Below are positions 6,072 through 13,609 of a stretch of 44,386 bases of DNA, one piece after another; within the stretch, counting starts at the first letter, position 1, and each line of letters opens with the position of its first letter. The notes under the pieces were generated by a model. That model did no database searches, was not told the origin of the DNA, and saw nothing but the letters and a program-made list of their open reading frames with translations. Both the position numbers and the translations under genes were made by a program. The stretch spans positions 1 to 44,386 of the forward strand of contig JADINA010000027.1 in the NCBI GenBank assembly GCA_017694295.1. The letters are read 5' to 3'. Source of the stretch: Candidatus Alloenteromonas pullistercoris (GTDB lineage Bacteria > Bacillota_I > Bacilli_A > RFN20 > CAG-826).

Positions 6072-6084
6072 TTGCCTAACGTTT

Positions 6085-6113
6085 AAAAGAGGCTCGGGAA
6101 CGGGCCTCTTTTC
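6085..6113 (+). terminator. Intrinsic terminator of the spc/alpha ribosomal operon
   Basis: AAAAGAGGC pairs with GCCTCTTTT around a short G/C loop, and the right arm ends in TTTTC. This is a canonical Rho-independent terminator 14 bp after the rplQ stop. It separates the GC-rich core operon from the AT-richer cassette that follows. Confidence 0.9.
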
Positions 6114-6115
6114 TA

Positions 6116-6143
6116 TTGACTGCCGTTTTCTCTATGTTACTAT
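6116..6143 (+). promoter_or_regulatory. Promoter of the secreted protein/ABC cassette
   Basis: TTGACT (6116-6121) and TACTAT (6138-6143) are separated by 16 bp. The expected start of transcription is near 6150, just before the AGGAGG at 6153-6158. It lies immediately after the rplQ terminator, so the cassette has its own transcription unit. Confidence 0.65.
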
Positions 6144-6163
6144 TAATAAATCAGGAGGCATTT

Positions 6164-7132
6164 ATGCTAAAAGAGTTGTTGCTTGTTGTTGCGTCTGCTT
6201 TGCCGTTTTCCAATGGTTTGACTTCCGGCGACCACATCGAATTCATCGATTGCGGAACCGAAATTATCTATGTTGAGCCTTCGGCTGTATCGCCTATGTC
6301 GGTGGGCCTTCACCCGGAAATTCCTGGCTTTGATTGGGTGTATAGTTTCGATGCGCCACGATACATCGACGATGACAGGGAAACTAATAAAATTGGCTAC
6401 ATGCATATGGACTTGGACCTTTATACAACGAGATTTACTGATAAGTCATGTCTTTTGTTGATGCATACCAAGACCGAATGCACATCTGGTAACACGGCTT
6501 CCAAGCTTTTTGAAAATTTTAATGCACGCCTAGATTTAGATTCGATTAAAGTCCTTACCGAAGTCCCGCAAATGAAGGACAATTCGAATGGCTACACGAC
6601 CGGTAGCGTTCATTTATTGGAATATTGGCCTCACTCGGATAATGTGTCAGAGACTACAATCGCGTCAACCACCGGTTTGGGTTTGACTTTGGGTTCTGGT
6701 TTTGAAATTGGGATTGAGGCTGGCGATGCAACGCTGAAATTGTCTCCAAGTGGTGGGCTTACGATTAATTTTGGAAAACAAGCCATCAATAGCGAAACTG
6801 AGCCTTTTCTCGATTCTGGACGTTCTCCAAAAACCGATGATTGGCCATTCAATTCATATTATTTTAACGTTCAATATGATGGGCTTGGAAAAGTAACATA
6901 TACCTTTGAAACATATAGTTTATTCGAGATTATCGATGATGAAATTGGTTTCAACGAATTCAGCTTTGTTGCTATTTATGACGCAACAATGGACGTCGTC
7001 GAAAATAAAGATTTGCCTATCAAAGAATGGCCATTTTTAGAGAAACATTATGAATTGTATAAGGGGACACAGATTAGATTTAATTTGGGATATGACCCAT
7101 CTAACGTAACCTTCTTCAATACGCTGAATTAA
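6164..7132 (+). CDS. Secreted beta-rich protein of unknown function
   Basis: The gene encodes 322 residues from the ATG at 6164, chosen because it follows AGGAGG by 5 bp; an upstream in-frame ATG at 6116 lies within the promoter. A short hydrophobic N-terminus (LLLVVASALPFSNG) looks like a signal peptide. The body is acidic and rich in aromatic and beta-forming residues. Residues about 165-205 alternate small/polar with hydrophobic residues and many glycines, in two strands around a Ser-Pro-Ser turn. This resembles an amphipathic beta-hairpin of the kind found in beta-barrel pore-formers or adhesins. No enzyme motif was recognised. Codon use is much more AT-rich than in the ribosomal genes, suggesting transfer. 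Only 4 bp separate it from the first ABC gene, so secretion, immunity or substrate handling by those transporters is plausible but unproven. Confidence 0.75.
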   Translation: MLKELLLVVASALPFSNGLTSGDHIEFIDCGTEIIYVEPSAVSPMSVGLHPEIPGFDWVYSFDAPRYIDDDRETNKIGYMHMDLDLYTTRFTDKSCLLLMHTKTECTSGNTASKLFENFNARLDLDSIKVLTEVPQMKDNSNGYTTGSVHLLEYWPHSDNVSETTIASTTGLGLTLGSGFEIGIEAGDATLKLSPSGGLTINFGKQAINSETEPFLDSGRSPKTDDWPFNSYYFNVQYDGLGKVTYTFETYSLFEIIDDEIGFNEFSFVAIYDATMDVVENKDLPIKEWPFLEKHYELYKGTQIRFNLGYDPSNVTFFNTLN

Positions 7133-7136
7133 AAAT

Positions 7137-9029
7137 ATGATCAAAGTCTCTAATATAAATAAGCTTATTGGGGGCTTTGCGTTAATAATCTCTGATTTGG
7201 ATCTGCCTTCTTTCGGCTTTGTATTATTGCAAGGTCCTAACGGTTCTGGTAAATCAACTTTATTTGGCATTTTGTCCGGACGCGACACTGATTACGATGG
7301 TTCGTTTTACCTTGATGGCGAATTGCTTGGCAAAAAGGAATTAATGGATTATGCCGATGCCTATGTGGCCTATTGTCCTCAGGATAGTTTGATCTTCGAT
7401 GACGAAACCTCTTTGAAAAACGTACTGCTTCCTTATTCTAGGAAGAACAAAAAGGAAGCTATTGGTATTTTGAATCAATTGGGCCTTGGCAATGTCATCT
7501 ACTCTAAAGCCCGCGATCTCAGCAGCGGCGAAAAGCAGCGCGTTGCGATTGCCAGGGCTTTGTATTCGAAACGGCCAGTCTTGTTGTTCGATGAGCCCTT
7601 CTCCCTTCTGGATGGGGAAAGCCGAGACAAAGCCGTTAAGGCCCTTATTGCAGCGTCTAAGGAAAACCTGGTTATTTGCAGCACCAATGAGGATATTCCC
7701 GACGGATTGCTCGATGGAGAAGACGTTGGCAGAATCGTTTTGGAACAAGGGCGGTTGAAAGAAGCGGCCTTCCCGGATAATCAAAAGAAAATAGCTGCTC
7801 CCCAAACATTTAAAAAGGGTTTTGCGGGCCGTTTAAAGGAAATTTTCGTTGGTAATAAGTTGTTTTATGCGATTTTAGGTTTATGTAGCCTTATTTTTTC
7901 AATTTGGTCAACTTTTGACGGAATGATGTCTACCTCTTTTTTCGGCACTGTTTTCGAAGAACCCCCCTTAGGATATAGGTATTCTTATCAAAAGCTAGCC
8001 TACGTTGAAACAAGCGATGTTTTAACTCAAAACGGGTTAATGGAAGGTAATCCAATTTTGTTAAAACATAATGAGAGTTTCCGTGTACTAAATGGCGAAG
8101 GCGAGCATAGAATCGTTACTTGCGCATCAATGACCGATTCTTTTGTCAACGACGATTATTGGTTGCTTGATAATAAAGTGCTGCTGGCTGGGAATTGGCC
8201 AAAAGAAGAGAGAGAAATCGCCCTTCCGACCGGATTGCTCAATTTATATTATGATATTGAGCCGGGAACCGCATGGGAATCTTTTTTGGGCAAAGAAGAT
8301 AACTTTTTCGAATATAGAGATTCGTATCACATCTGCGGCATTTTCGACGCGCCTATTCCCAATTGGGCTGAGGATCTTTATTTTTTTCTTCGCGGAGGCT
8401 ATCGAGGAGATGGCGATTTGATCTTTAATGATCAAGATGCCTGCATGTTTGGAGCCAATTATTATTTGGCCGTCGTTTATTCGTTTCGATCATCAGGCGG
8501 CTATTATTTTTACCCGCCTACCGAACATAACAAGCAAATTGCGAAATTGGTAGGCCATACATCCGATATCGCTATTGCTACGAAATCATTTTCTACGTCA
8601 ATAAGCCCGATGGATCGGTTGAATGATTTAGAAACATATTATTGGATAAACGCCTTTGCCTGCATTTGTCTTTTGTCATTTCCGTTTTCTTATTATCTTT
8701 CTAATCGCCGAAGGTTTATGCTTTTGCGGTTTGGCGGAATGGCCCGAAATCGCTTGGCTTCTCCTTTGCTGGCCGCCTTTAGCATCGTAATCGGCGGGCC
8801 TATATTGCTGGGGCTTGGGCTTGGAATCGGGTTATCTTATTTGATTGAGGCAATATATTTTTCCACATTGATCATGCCTGGGGTCGATTACATCGTTTTC
8901 GATTACTCTTCGTTTTTGGTGACGACGCTATTCGGGATTGCCGTCTTGCTTTTGACGTTTGCTTTCCTCTATTTCGTGCTACTGAAAAAGAACTTGGGCA
9001 AAGATTTGGCTAAGATTAAGGAAAAATGA
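7137..9029 (+). CDS. ABC transporter, ATPase fused to MacB/FtsX-like permease (first of pair)
   Basis: The 630-residue product has an N-terminal ATPase (about 1-215). Visible are Walker A GPNGSGKST (33-41), Q-loop Gln82, signature LSSGEKQ (128-134) and Walker B LLFDE (149-153). The switch position reads STNED, with Asn184 where the H-loop His is expected. A membrane helix follows near 235-258, then an extracytoplasmic domain of about 250 residues, then three more helices in the last 130 residues. This is the one-plus-three layout of MacB/FtsX-type permeases, which usually move substrates mechanically outside the membrane. No Shine-Dalgarno precedes it; it probably depends on coupling to the upstream gene. 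It overlaps the next ABC gene by 4 bp (ATGA). Base composition is AT-rich. Likely a heterodimer half; the substrate is unknown. Confidence 0.85.
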   Translation: MIKVSNINKLIGGFALIISDLDLPSFGFVLLQGPNGSGKSTLFGILSGRDTDYDGSFYLDGELLGKKELMDYADAYVAYCPQDSLIFDDETSLKNVLLPYSRKNKKEAIGILNQLGLGNVIYSKARDLSSGEKQRVAIARALYSKRPVLLFDEPFSLLDGESRDKAVKALIAASKENLVICSTNEDIPDGLLDGEDVGRIVLEQGRLKEAAFPDNQKKIAAPQTFKKGFAGRLKEIFVGNKLFYAILGLCSLIFSIWSTFDGMMSTSFFGTVFEEPPLGYRYSYQKLAYVETSDVLTQNGLMEGNPILLKHNESFRVLNGEGEHRIVTCASMTDSFVNDDYWLLDNKVLLAGNWPKEEREIALPTGLLNLYYDIEPGTAWESFLGKEDNFFEYRDSYHICGIFDAPIPNWAEDLYFFLRGGYRGDGDLIFNDQDACMFGANYYLAVVYSFRSSGGYYFYPPTEHNKQIAKLVGHTSDIAIATKSFSTSISPMDRLNDLETYYWINAFACICLLSFPFSYYLSNRRRFMLLRFGGMARNRLASPLLAAFSIVIGGPILLGLGLGIGLSYLIEAIYFSTLIMPGVDYIVFDYSSFLVTTLFGIAVLLLTFAFLYFVLLKKNLGKDLAKIKEK

Positions 9030-11026
9030 TTGAACTGAAGGATATTCGCATTGAGTTTAACCGGGTTGTGCTCGACTCTTTTTCCTGTTCGATCGGCGGC
9101 GGCATCAATGTTTTGGATGGGGAATCGGGGTCGGGAAAATCGACCATCATCAAATTGATTTTAGGTGAATCAGTGCCGTTTAAGGGAGAGGTAATAGTCC
9201 CGAGCGATTTGGTTTTTTCCTATTGTGGGCCCGACGCCTCGCTTATTTACGACAAGACCTTTTTGGACAACCTTCGCCTTTTCTTTGGTTTCGGCCAATT
9301 GCCGGAAACCTTATCGAAATTGGCGAATGATATTGGAGCGGCTAGTTTGCTTTCGAAGAAAATCGAAAACTGCTCCGGCGGGGAAAGAAGGAAACTCGAA
9401 ATCTTGTTTTGCCTTTGCAAGAACGCCGATCTATATATTCTTGATGAGCCGTTTTCCGCCTTAGACGAGGTAAGCAAGTCGGTTTTGCGGGATTTTCTCA
9501 TCGGTTTTCGGCGTAAAAAGAATTTTCTTATCGTCAACCACGACAAAACCGTCGATTTGCCTTATGATCATCTGGTGAAGATCAAAGGCGGCCGGGCTTT
9601 TGAGGAAGGGGATGTTATTCCCTTGTCCCATTCCGCCTCGTCCCATCAGGGAAAAAGGCTCTCCGTGCTTAAAACGGCTTGGTCTTTATTCCGTCAGTGC
9701 CGCCTTTCTTCGATTATCGAATCGTTTTTTGCTTTAGCCGGGGTGATTTTATCCTTGCTTGCCATTGCCTGCATCCCATGCGACCAAGCCCATGCCAATC
9801 GGAAAATCGTAGAAGCCGATCCATATGCCAGGCAGTTTTATGAGGCTTCCGACGTTTTGGATTTTAAAGAATTCCAATGTTGGCAGGATAACTCCCTTTT
9901 GGTTTTCCCGACGGGGAAAGTGGCGAATGAGAGCTTTGTTTCGACCAATGGCTATCTCGTTTCCTACGATGGCCCCGATTTCCTCGTTCTCCACGGGCAA
10001 GGCGGAGAATCCGGATTCGCCTTGCAGCCGGATTTCTCATATGAAAAAGATGGGAGCGTCGAGCAATGCCAATTCTCGTTTATCGAAGACGGCGATCCGC
10101 GGCTATCGTTTCTTTCTTCCTATCGGCGCTTCGAAAGCATTGGCGAATCGACAATGCTCTTCCTTTGCCCGAAAGAAGAATTGCCTTACGTCGTTTGCTC
10201 AATCGTCAACGGCGATTTCATCCACCAATCTTATGTGAAAGACGGACCAGTGTATTCGGAGATGGAACACATTTCCTTGCTTTGCCCAACTTTGGCCTAC
10301 GGGTTCCTCGAGTATAATGACCGGACATCATCTCACCCATTTTTGACTCCGGAAGACGATTATCGATTTTCTTCTTCCAGGTCCGAGGGCGGATTCGTCA
10401 AAACCAATCGCAACCAATGGCAGATACCATGTGAGGAAGGCGAGGATTCGATGAGCTTTGGGGCCTATGCCTATTTCTCTTTCCATTCCGGACTTTTGGG
10501 CTATGCCGGCTGCGGTTTGCTGGGAATCGGGAAAGTCGAGGCCTTGGAGAATCTTGAATTTGAAAATTTCGCCCCTTTGGATGTCATCCAATTTGATCCG
10601 GGGTGGCTTAAGATTAAACAACTCTATTTCGCGTTGGGGGCCGGCGGCGCGTTTTTCATCTTTGCCATCGTCGCGATATTCGGCGCCGAATCCAAGAGGA
10701 AGCGGTTTATCTCCTTGCGGCAGACCCTTATGCATAATGGGGATTCGCATAAAAAGGCTAATCGGAAACTGGCGTTTTCGATCGCCGCTCCTTATTTTCT
10801 TGTCCTTTTAGTTTCCTATTTGCTTTATTTCGCTTTGATCCTGCCTTGCGTGAATTATTGGCAGATGTCTTTGGATTATCCGTTAGGTTATGGGTCGATT
10901 GGCCCCCTGTATGAAAGGATATCGATGCTTTGGTTCCATTTGCCTTCCTGGTGGTTATTGGCGTTGGTCGCCGGAGCGGCCATATCGCTTATCCAGTTTG
11001 CCTTGCTATCCCGGCGGAAGCGCTAG
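9026..11026 (+). CDS. ABC transporter, ATPase fused to MacB/FtsX-like permease (second of pair)
   Basis: The 666-residue product mirrors its neighbour. The ATPase domain (about 1-200) has Walker A GESGSGKST (32-40), signature CSGGE (116-120), Walker B YILDE (137-141) and a normal H-loop His172 (NHD). The Q-loop glutamine is missing: the segment reads YCGPD with Pro69 at the aligned position. A helix near 232-255 precedes a large extracytoplasmic domain (about 256-535), then three C-terminal helices. The ATGA overlap with the first ABC gene implies equal expression and assembly as a heterodimer. GC content is between that of the first half of the cassette and the core genome. It ends 1 bp before a convergent gene with no obvious terminator between them. 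Family resemblance is to MacB-like or bacteriocin-associated exporters; the substrate is unknown. Confidence 0.85.
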   Translation: MIELKDIRIEFNRVVLDSFSCSIGGGINVLDGESGSGKSTIIKLILGESVPFKGEVIVPSDLVFSYCGPDASLIYDKTFLDNLRLFFGFGQLPETLSKLANDIGAASLLSKKIENCSGGERRKLEILFCLCKNADLYILDEPFSALDEVSKSVLRDFLIGFRRKKNFLIVNHDKTVDLPYDHLVKIKGGRAFEEGDVIPLSHSASSHQGKRLSVLKTAWSLFRQCRLSSIIESFFALAGVILSLLAIACIPCDQAHANRKIVEADPYARQFYEASDVLDFKEFQCWQDNSLLVFPTGKVANESFVSTNGYLVSYDGPDFLVLHGQGGESGFALQPDFSYEKDGSVEQCQFSFIEDGDPRLSFLSSYRRFESIGESTMLFLCPKEELPYVVCSIVNGDFIHQSYVKDGPVYSEMEHISLLCPTLAYGFLEYNDRTSSHPFLTPEDDYRFSSSRSEGGFVKTNRNQWQIPCEEGEDSMSFGAYAYFSFHSGLLGYAGCGLLGIGKVEALENLEFENFAPLDVIQFDPGWLKIKQLYFALGAGGAFFIFAIVAIFGAESKRKRFISLRQTLMHNGDSHKKANRKLAFSIAAPYFLVLLVSYLLYFALILPCVNYWQMSLDYPLGYGSIGPLYERISMLWFHLPSWWLLALVAGAAISLIQFALLSRRKR

Positions 11027-11027
11027 C

Positions 11028-12170
11028 CTATCCGATCATTATGCGTTCCGACTTGAAGGCCCGGTCGGTAAGGAAGGTGATGATCCCAGTCAATATGAGG
11101 TTGGCCAAAACCGTCATCCCAAAGAAAAGGTAATCGATTTGCCCCCTGGCCACCATGGTGAGGCAGGCGCAGGAGTTGATGAAGGGAACGAAGGCAAAGC
11201 CGATCGATGAGAGGTCGGCAAAGCTGGGGATAAGGGCGATTAGGACCGCGACCGCCGCCCCCGGGCCTAAATAGCTATTGGCTTCCTTGGTCGATTTGGC
11301 AAGGGAGCTTATAAGGGTGGCGAAGCTAATGAAAAGCAGTAGCAGCGACACGACCGCGAAGAAGTAAAGGACGTAGCCGCCGAATCCGATGTTGAGTTTG
11401 ATGTCGCCAAGCAACTGCGGGGTGGCGAAGATGGTGCAGATGGCGTTGACCGAACCGGAAAGGATGGAAAGCAAAGATAAGGCCAACAGCTTCCCGGCGG
11501 CGAATTCGGCGGGGGTGATGGGGGTGGCGAGGACTTTGAGCAAAGTCCCCCTTTCCTTCTCCCCGGCGATCGATTCCGGGCAGATCGAGAGGACGGTGCT
11601 ATAAAGAATCGAGATTGTGATCATCGGCAAAATAAAGCCGATGACGGTGTTCTCCATAAACGATTCGCTGCCGACGTTGGGGTCGATGCCCTGGTTGAAT
11701 TGGTAGGTCTTGAAAGTCGCGTCGACGAGGCTAGGCAGAAGGGCGAAGAGGGTCTCCGAGCTCGCCGAGGAGGAGTTGTAATAGGCTTTGACGTCTTTTA
11801 GCTCCCCCGAGGAGAAGGTGAAAAGCATGAGTGAGTCGATCTCGCCACTACGCAGCTTATCCATCTCATCTTCGAAAAGGTCGACGGTGTAATACTCAAT
11901 CGTCGGGGCGGCTTGCTCGGTTTGCGAGAAATAGGTGAGCAAGGTTGCCTCGAATTCCTCGCTTTTGCCTTCTTCGTTGATGGCGATCTTATAGGAATAA
12001 TCCGGCTCGACTCCCAAATTGGTGAAAACCGAATCGATTACCTGCCCAAGGATAGTGTAGAGGACGAAAATCATGACCCCAGGCAGGAAAAGGGCGCAAA
12101 GCATGCGCTTATCGAATAAAAAGCGGCGCATTTCTTTCTTAAAGACCGCAAAAACGCGTTGGAATTTCAT
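11028..12170 (-). CDS. ABC-2 type exporter permease (NatB-like)
   Basis: The 380-residue membrane protein has one N-terminal helix (about 24-44, LFLPGVMIFVLYTILG), an extracytoplasmic domain of about 130 residues, then five helices. The segment with IAGEKERGTLLKVLATPIT is characteristic of ABC-2 permeases of the NatB/YhaP type. Such systems export sodium, drugs or peptides. The start overlaps the upstream ATPase stop (ATGA), so the pair is co-translated. It runs convergent with the preceding ABC cassette. The substrate cannot be told from the sequence. Confidence 0.88.
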   Translation of the reverse strand: MKFQRVFAVFKKEMRRFLFDKRMLCALFLPGVMIFVLYTILGQVIDSVFTNLGVEPDYSYKIAINEEGKSEEFEATLLTYFSQTEQAAPTIEYYTVDLFEDEMDKLRSGEIDSLMLFTFSSGELKDVKAYYNSSSASSETLFALLPSLVDATFKTYQFNQGIDPNVGSESFMENTVIGFILPMITISILYSTVLSICPESIAGEKERGTLLKVLATPITPAEFAAGKLLALSLLSILSGSVNAICTIFATPQLLGDIKLNIGFGGYVLYFFAVVSLLLLFISFATLISSLAKSTKEANSYLGPGAAVAVLIALIPSFADLSSIGFAFVPFINSCACLTMVARGQIDYLFFGMTVLANLILTGIITFLTDRAFKSERIMIG

Positions 12171-12931
12171 ATTTCCTCCTCGTGGTAAACCGAGAAAAAC
12201 GCCTTTTCGACATCCCCCGTCTTCCTAATGTCCTCCATGTCCGCCTCGTAAGCGTTTTCCCCTTTGAGGATGATGAGGACGTGGTCGCAAAGCTTGTCGA
12301 TGAGGGAGAAGATGTGGGTCGAGACGATGATGGCCTTGCCTTGCTCCCTAAGCGAGGAAAGGTAATCCTCGACCGTCTTGGCGGCGAGGATGTCGAGGCC
12401 GTTTGTCGGCTCGTCGAAGATGACGATGTCCGGGTCGTTGATGAGTGAGGCGGCCAATGAGGCCTTTTGCTTCATGCCGGTCGAGAGCTCGCCGATTTTC
12501 CTAAAGGCGAAATCGTCGATTCCAAACAAATGGAAAAGCTCTTTTTTCTTTGCCTCGATTTGCTCTTTGCTTAAGCCGTATAAGGCGCCGAAGAAGGAGA
12601 AGGTGTAATCGGGCGTGAAGGCCGGGTCGAGGCGGAGGTCGCTGGTTAGGAAGCCGATCTTGGCCCGCAGATGTCCGCTATCCTTGGTGAGTCTCTCCCC
12701 AAAGATGGTTATTTCCCCTTCGCTAGGCGAGATGAGCCCGGAAAGCATCCTGAGCGTCGTGGTCTTGCCAGCCCCGTTTGGGCCCAATAGCCCGAATATC
12801 TCGCCCCGGCGGAGCGATAAAGACAAATTTGAGACGGCCAAAAATGTCTTTTCCCCGTTTTTCCTTTTCTTCCGGGGGAGGGCGAAGCGCTTCGAAAGGC
12901 CTTTCGCCTCGAGGATCGTTTCCTTTTCCAT
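12167..12931 (-). CDS. ABC transporter ATP-binding protein (NatA-like)
   Basis: The 254-residue ATPase carries Walker [10 protein letters not shown], a Q-loop-type region, signature LSTGMKQK, Walker [13 protein letters not shown] and a switch His in VSTHIFS. This arrangement (DEPTNGLD with LSTGMKQ) is typical of NatA/CcmA-type exporters that pair with ABC-2 permeases. It lies between a CBS-domain protein (3-bp gap) and the permease (4-bp overlap), forming a three-gene minus-strand operon. All catalytic motifs look intact. Confidence 0.92.
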
Positions 12932-12934
12932 TGC

Positions 12935-13609
12935 CTATTTGTTCCTTTTCACTTCTTCGGATACCACGTCGTAGATCGAGATAACCCCAAGCATCGCCTC
13001 TTCCTTCTTCCCGTGCTCGGTGACGATTATCAGCCCAAGCCGCTTATCCCCTTCGATTTGGGAAAAAGCCCTTTCGGCGTAGGCCATCGGCTCATTCCTC
13101 CCCATGAAGACGAAGCGTTTGGAATGGTTATCGAGGGCGAAGAGGGATTCATATTCGCCGATGGTCATCTTGGCCTTCGTCCCCTTTTCTAGTTGCTCGC
13201 CCATTATCTGCAATAGCTTCCCGGCGGTGATGATGCCCTGCACCCTTTTCCTTTCATCGACGATCGGGACGTAGGTGACGCCATGCCGGGCGAAGTTGAC
13301 GATGGGCAGTTGCAATGGGTCGAGGGAGGTGTAGGCGATCACGTCCTTGGTGGCGATGTCCAAACACGTTTTGCGCATCCGGATGAGGATTTCCTCCAAG
13401 TCGTCGCAGACCAAGCTCGACACCGCGACCGGGTAGCCGCCGCCATATTCCTCGTGGCTTAGGTAGTTGCGGATTTGCCGGTATTCGTCGAATTGCTCGT
13501 AGTATTTTTTCTTATAGTAGCCATAAAGGGACGAATTGGTGTCGCGGATCGTCTCCAACTGCCGGTATAGGTTAAGGAAGCGGTCTGTCGTCTGCTTGGT
13601 GTATTCCAT
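12935..13609 (-). CDS. CBS-domain protein with N-terminal HEPN-like motif
   Basis: The 224-residue product has an N-terminal helical region of about 75 residues and then a pair of CBS-like repeats (about 78-220), recognised from the segment pattern of CDDLEEILIRM, VTYVPIVDERKRVQGIITAGKLL and RLGLIIVTEHGK...GVISIYDV. CBS pairs usually bind adenosine nucleotides and act as regulators. The N-terminal region contains R47-N-Y-L-S-H52, which matches the R-x4-H signature of HEPN ribonuclease domains; this part is an inference. It leads the operon with the NatAB-like exporter, so it may sense energy or nucleotide state for that system. An AAGGAAAG Shine-Dalgarno precedes the start. Confidence 0.75.
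   Translation of the reverse strand: MEYTKQTTDRFLNLYRQLETIRDTNSSLYGYYKKKYYEQFDEYRQIRNYLSHEEYGGGYPVAVSSLVCDDLEEILIRMRKTCLDIATKDVIAYTSLDPLQLPIVNFARHGVTYVPIVDERKRVQGIITAGKLLQIMGEQLEKGTKAKMTIGEYESLFALDNHSKRFVFMGRNEPMAYAERAFSQIEGDKRLGLIIVTEHGKKEEAMLGVISIYDVVSEEVKRNK

Follow-up and report, generated by a model that had tools for sequence, protein, structure and literature searches.

A predicted leukocidin-fold protein recurrently linked to MacB-type transporters or small membrane proteins in uncultured Bacilli: a candidate pore-forming toxin-immunity operon

The gene unit behind rplQ

The window analyzed here is a stretch of 44,386 nucleotides from Candidatus Alloenteromonas pullistercoris (contig JADINA010000027.1), in which three coupled plus-strand genes lie between rplQ and a convergent operon. 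The first encodes an apparently secreted protein, here called SEC, and the other two, ABC1 and ABC2, encode fused ATP-binding cassette (ABC) proteins. The features of the unit are as follows.

6085 to 6112, plus strand: terminator hairpin of rplQ and the alpha operon, marking off the ribosomal operon from the unit (folding of 6076-6118 gives -18.9 kcal/mol, z -5.5)
6116 to 6143, plus strand: promoter-like site, TTGACT-16-TACTAT, whose second hexamer is preceded by TG (consensus match only, 9/12 positions)
6153 to 6158, plus strand: AGGAGG ribosome-binding site of SEC, read from the sequence
6164 to 7132, plus strand: SEC, apparently secreted 322-aa protein and putative pore-forming toxin, predicted to adopt a leukocidin/alpha-hemolysin fold
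6632 to 6802, plus strand: residues 157-213 of SEC, between conserved WP and DP motifs, putative stem segment (membrane hairpin)
7137 to 9029, plus strand: ABC1, 630-aa ATPase-permease fusion of MacB/FtsX topology, putative immunity subunit (ABC_tran E 3e-24)
9026 to 11026, plus strand: ABC2, 666 aa, putative partner subunit of ABC1 and likewise an ATPase-permease fusion with this topology (ABC_tran E 4.9e-15)

SEC and ABC1 are spaced by 4 bp (7133-7136), ABC1 and ABC2 share an ATGA overlap (9026-9029), and ABC2 ends at 11026, 1 bp before the end of a convergent ABC-2 permease gene at 11028. These coordinates agree with an earlier, sequence-only reading of the window, which had described three tightly coupled genes placed between the rplQ terminator and a convergent operon; the hairpin at 6085-6112 was not picked up by a consensus terminator scan. 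The same reading gave the unit its own promoter, which stands as a promoter-like site directly behind the hairpin (one in the real sequence, 0.1 on average in shuffled ones). The most likely start of SEC is the ATG at 6164, behind AGGAGG; the TTG further upstream, at 6116, is part of the first hexamer in the promoter-like site.

Base composition sets the unit apart, with G+C content dropping from about 0.59 in the surroundings to 0.39-0.49. At third codon positions it is 0.41 in SEC, 0.44 in ABC1, and 0.57 in ABC2, compared with 0.74-0.86 in secY, rpoA, rplQ, and the three convergent genes, which bears out the AT-rich codon use, strongest in the first two genes, noted earlier. By codon distance, SEC (with its open reading frame taken from 6116), ABC1, and ABC2 rank 1, 2, and 4 among 25 open reading frames of at least 200 aa, and rank 3 is held by a minus-strand frame that is probably no gene. 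The genome containing the window comprises 1.42 Mb in 40 contigs, and the closest match of its rpoA (83%) in a collection of named genomes, which may omit very near records, is Candidatus Alloenteromonas pullicola, a metagenome-assembled genome whose genus is placed in Bacillota incertae sedis. We infer that the host inhabits the gut because the next-closest rpoA records come, to judge by their titles, mostly from rumen and feces.

Predicted fold of SEC

The sequence-only reading had recognized no family for the secreted protein, and this no longer holds. In two structure comparisons, the predicted SEC structure matched leukocidin/alpha-hemolysin pore-forming proteins in 50/50 matches listed. 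The match covers residues 47-310, the beta-sandwich and rim are present in the prediction, and identity is 5-12% among the matches listed. The fold was named through structure comparison because sequence searches of the PDB gave nothing: SEC itself returned 0 matches, and a 22-sequence SEC profile returned a single chance-like match to a tail-fibre protein (E 0.062). Weak matches to family models, among them RGI1 and Shiga toxin B (E 0.083), were likewise taken as chance. A family absent from Pfam and NCBIfam thus gains its first structural name.

At the position of the leukocidin stem, 22/22 SEC relatives carry a segment of 52-75 residues rich in Ser, Thr, and Gly, which corresponds in the SEC model to residues of low confidence (160-211, pLDDT <50). 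An N-terminal signal peptide is plausible by inspection; a crude hydropathy scan flags some members of the family, the SEC of the window not among them.

Architecture of ABC1 and ABC2

ABC1 and ABC2 are MacB/FtsX-architecture fusions, not classical exporters. Both show the layout of an ATPase domain, a first transmembrane (TM) helix, an external domain, and three more TM helices; for ABC1 this order (nucleotide-binding domain, TM1, external domain, three TM) is seen in the model and in its MacB matches, and ABC2 has four predicted TM segments. Beyond the ATPase, only MacB (5lil, 5lj7, and 5lj6) and ABCA1 (7tbw) align with ABC1 among the 50 structural matches listed, with root-mean-square deviations of 10-18. 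In the ABC1 H-switch, Asn takes the place of His. Against the Pfam FtsX model (cut-off 25.5 bits), ABC1 scores 19.9 bits (E 0.00077) and ABC2 has no match; among the other SEC-linked transporters, the long ABCs of loci L042 and L044 exceed the cut-off (43.6 and 34.2 bits), L012 reaches 18.1 bits, and neither the second ABC of L049 nor L057 has a match. No MacA-like adaptor was found in the six proteins scanned from 6164 to 13609, and the upstream neighbors are rplQ and rpoA.

The sequence-only reading took the two proteins for exporters, and operon order would suit export of SEC by the ABC pair, as would the NCBIfam model that the ABC1 ATPase matches best, TIGR03608, which describes a putative bacteriocin export ATPase. 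However, the TIGR03608 score of 88.3 bits is far under the cut-off of 254.85, SEC has an apparent Sec signal peptide of its own (by inspection only), and some SEC genes have no adjoining ABC. MacB-type ABCs, moreover, carry no substrates across their own membrane (PMC5985334). We therefore consider export of SEC by the pair very improbable. A defense role, also raised earlier, fared no better: PADLOC models for anti-phage systems give SEC no match and ABC1 and ABC2 only a match to the generic ATPase domain (residues 4-192).

Linkage of SEC relatives to membrane partners

SEC relatives are scattered patchily in the same class, and a scan of named genomes for close relatives with SEC found none. 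From 26 SEC places, four that were interrupted or fragmentary were dropped (G019:C52, G060:C38, G082:C8, and G030:C1:523489) and 22 kept; 11 new genomes brought the number to 33, and removal of L014 (198 aa) and four fusions to a helix-turn-helix (HTH) region left 28 SEC genes of at least 200 aa. Directly downstream of these lies a fused ABC in 14/28 and a membrane protein of 65-162 aa in 10/28. For other genes in the SEC loci the corresponding counts are 0/199 and 8/199 (Fisher p 1e-21), a p value that is too small in principle, since related loci were treated as independent, open reading frames were called mechanically, and the background omits the fused ABC genes themselves.

Eight of the 28 loci hold SEC with two fused ABCs (the window, L012, L043, L044, L049, L057, L059, and L167) and six more a single one (L010, L011, L042, L045, L048, and L046, the last cut by a contig end). 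These units sit at different chromosomal sites, so that the genes are indeed found together elsewhere, and the likeness to bacteriocin immunity modules seen in the sequence-only reading is upheld. In two further loci (L015 and L017), a multi-helix protein of 118 aa is encoded immediately upstream of SEC, so that a membrane partner adjoins SEC in 26/28 loci, 24 downstream and 2 upstream. Among the ten small downstream partners, eight have two predicted helices, and six (L041, L157, L158, L159, L164, and L166) are interlinked by matches in blastp, run without composition correction (E 1e-3 to 1e-15), and may, on this sequence evidence, be one diverged family; the remaining small partners match none of the ten by blastp. 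No Pfam cut-off was reached by the 8 partner proteins tested (seven of the ten and that of L017). Toxin-immunity genes show just this pattern, with an ABC or a small membrane protein in the same position next to a secreted protein that is itself diverse.

One neighborhood, with rpsO and pnp recognized by eye, occurs in two species (L012:7670-15669 and L013:8137-15207). In the first, SEC-ABC1-ABC2 is accompanied by a fragment of SEC (59 aa) close to pnp; in the second, two SEC genes are present, and each has a small membrane protein as its partner. The neighborhood looks like a cassette-exchange site.

The four fusions (L160:7482-8522, L162:7766-8815, L163:7667-8704, and L165:7730-8800) are single chains that run from an HTH-like N-terminus through one TM helix to an extracellular domain resembling SEC. 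HTH_3 scored over its cut-off in both fusions tested (L160 and L163), and by eye all four seem short of much of the stem segment. In these proteins the SEC-like fold is possibly the sensor of a membrane-bound regulator.

ABC pairs without SEC and mobility of the unit

Among 224 family genomes, 12 have genes of the ABC2 type (E up to 1e-50), at 14 places in all; this number is a lower bound, as the five best candidates per genome were scored. Three of these places have an intact SEC, eight have none, two at contig ends are undecided, and one (L174) has a SEC remnant. This remnant of 44 residues lies directly upstream of the ABCs, is 41% identical to the SEC of L057 (E 6e-6), and is visible to blastp and tblastn against that protein, having been missed by the family profile; the nearest relatives of the L174 ABCs are likewise the ABCs of L057 (support 0.87 and 0.98). 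At the same rplQ site, Candidatus A. pullicola carries an ABC pair without SEC (L060:9464-13337, same contig as L168) that has a G+C content of 0.56 and belongs to a different subfamily. Its ABC1 clusters with pairs of another genus (0.99) and its ABC2 likewise, though at only 0.69, apart from the pair of the window. Two species of one genus therefore hold different ABC pairs at one site, and SEC comes and goes. ABC pairs without SEC fit orphan immunity.

These data also bear on whether SEC might be a nontoxic extracellular partner or sensor of the ABC pair, that is, a leukocidin-fold ligand binder that cooperates with a transporter of the MacB type under envelope stress or in resistance to peptides. 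The tight operon, the fusions, which suggest that the fold can serve sensing, and the extracellular partners that MacB-type systems often have (PMC5985334) would all agree with such a role. However, SEC and ABC are separable, because for 10/28 SEC genes the next gene downstream encodes a small membrane protein instead of an ABC, and SEC is absent from 8/14 ABC2-type places; the stem-position segment, too, is kept in 22/22 relatives. We regard a partner or sensor role as unlikely.

The idea of a mobile module gains indirect support from the atypical composition, the patchy occurrence, and the fact that the nearest named species holds another ABC pair at this site; on the plasmids and phages searched, however, the unit had no matches.

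Three species of the genus carry an SEC-free ABC pair at one conserved site, adjoining a probable glycoside hydrolase recognized by eye (L171:4949-8892, L172:3388-7331, and L173:3546-7486). It is nearest the pair of the window in the ABC2 tree and nearest L010, in the same clade, in the ABC1 tree. Within the window, the convergent run at 11028-13609 comprises an ABC-2 permease, a DrrA-like ATPase, and a CBS-domain protein, with 58-67% identity in Candidatus A. pullicola, and a Fic/DOC-domain protein gene (39686-40969, G+C 0.48, 0.61 at third codon positions) lies, by eye, between rpoC-like and rpsL-like genes.

A putative toxin-immunity operon

On balance, we lean toward reading the unit as a secreted pore-forming toxin-immunity operon in which SEC is the toxin and ABC1-ABC2 provide self-immunity. 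SEC would leave the cell via Sec by means of its apparent N-terminal signal, oligomerize on the target membrane as leukocidins do, and insert hairpins from its Ser/Thr/Gly-rich middle segment, yielding a pore. The target would most likely be other, related bacteria. In the producer membrane, ABC1 and ABC2 may form a heterodimer of MacB/FtsX architecture that spends ATP to strip SEC from the outer face of this membrane before a pore forms; in relatives, immunity could be the work of one ABC alone, of longer ABCs, or of a small membrane protein, mostly with two helices. As a rule, genes for antibacterial toxins, pore formers among them, come together with genes for immunity proteins (PMC9558359). 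What the analysis shows is the gene structure, the predicted fold, the recurring linkage, the ABC architecture, and the occurrence of ABC pairs lacking SEC; secretion, pore formation, an antibacterial target, and immunity with its mechanism are inferences.

Several results weigh against this proposal. Query-normalized TM-scores of SEC are low (0.23-0.38 among the matches listed), which we ascribe to the poorly modeled stem and N-terminus. No Pfam or NCBIfam family model calls SEC a leukocidin at its cut-off, none of the 22 family members has a Pfam leukocidin match, and TIGR01002 (cut-off 245.6 bits) reaches at best 15.9 bits across 19 genomes, with no match for the SEC of the window. Membrane hairpins should show amphipathic alternation, but in the stem segment this does not reach significance (Fisher p 0.06; 2/22 below 0.05). 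The HTH-TM-SEC fusions look as though they point to sensing, not toxicity; L016 and L161 lack an adjoining partner; and ABC2-type genes occur more often without SEC than with it (8 versus 3 of 14), so the ABC pair may have uses apart from SEC.

Leukocidins are known as toxins against animal cells. SEC might accordingly be a cytolysin against eukaryotic cells, such as gut epithelium or protists, with the ABCs doing other work, for example in damage response or peptide defense. The solved structures among the matches listed are pathogen toxins, the leukocidins tabulated in passages of PMC9558359 act on animal cells and bind animal receptors or lipids, and the ABC2-type genes without SEC at 8/14 places would also agree with this. 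A membrane partner adjoins SEC in 26/28 loci, however, and the swap between ABC and small membrane protein is what self-immunity would predict and an animal-cell toxin would not need. A eukaryotic target thus seems quite unlikely.

A broader form of the toxin-immunity proposal, which we hold in even balance, is that uncultured, probably gut-dwelling Bacilli make antibacterial toxins built on a deeply divergent branch of the alpha-hemolysin/leukocidin fold, that every such toxin is paired with an exchangeable gene for self-immunity, encoding either an ABC of the MacB type (single or heterodimeric, in two size classes) or a tiny membrane protein, and that the fold was also recruited as the sensor of a membrane-bound HTH regulator. 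If so, the leukocidin fold would also serve competition between bacteria, as MACPF does in Bacteroidales (PMC12853789), and a pore-forming protein toxin with defined immunity would allow study of MacB-type machines taking a pore former off a membrane. The parts are each of a known kind; their combination, a putative leukocidin-fold toxin with MacB-type or small-membrane-protein immunity, appears new, and no report of such a toxin with such partners was found in the open-licence literature, surveyed in part.

Comparison with known systems

With the leukocidin/alpha-hemolysin family (TIGR01002; relatives with solved structures are LukF/HlgB, Hla, CytK, NetF, Epx1, and Vibrio cytolysin), SEC shares its size, the predicted fold at residues 47-310, the S/T/G-rich segment at the stem position, and apparent secretion. 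It differs in its low identity (5-12%, as above), its distance from the curated cut-off, and the membrane partners that adjoin SEC genes, and pore formation by SEC is putative.

Lactococcin 972 is small, and its transporter is split into two proteins, whereas ABC1 and ABC2 are each fused. Like SEC, lactococcin 972 and streptococcin B pair a secreted, Sec-exported, beta-rich protein with two following genes for a putative immunity ABC transporter, orf2-orf3 in the lactococcin 972 operon (PMC4055356, PMC11796350), although these roles are described as unverified (PMC11796350). Lactococcin 972 is a beta-sandwich that acts upon lipid II and is not regarded as a pore former (PMC11796350). SEC has no Pfam match to the lactococcin 972 domain, and ABC1 stays below the TIGR03608 cut-off.

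Bacteroidales BSAP toxins offer a parallel in that a pore-forming fold best known from interkingdom toxins has been turned on bacteria by gut bacteria; they differ in their MACPF fold and outer-membrane receptors, and the available part of the source mentions no adjoining MacB-type ABC (PMC12853789).

For the ABC pair, the nearest counterparts are MacB-type (type VII) immunity transporters. Bacillus subtilis YknXYZ guards against the Sec-dependent toxin SDP, probably from the extracytoplasmic side, and in Enterococcus faecalis the MacB-like AS-48G/H, within AS-48FGH, serves the same purpose for AS-48 (PMC5985334). ABC1 and ABC2 share with them the MacB topology, the position beside an exported toxin, and a probably protective role. 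Unlike them, ABC1 and ABC2 are two unlike subunits, each fusing ATPase and permease, with no MacA-like adaptor in the six proteins scanned, and SEC would be a much larger protein toxin. The immunity genes linked to SEC would act like YknXYZ, AS-48FGH, or the lactococcin 972 transporter.

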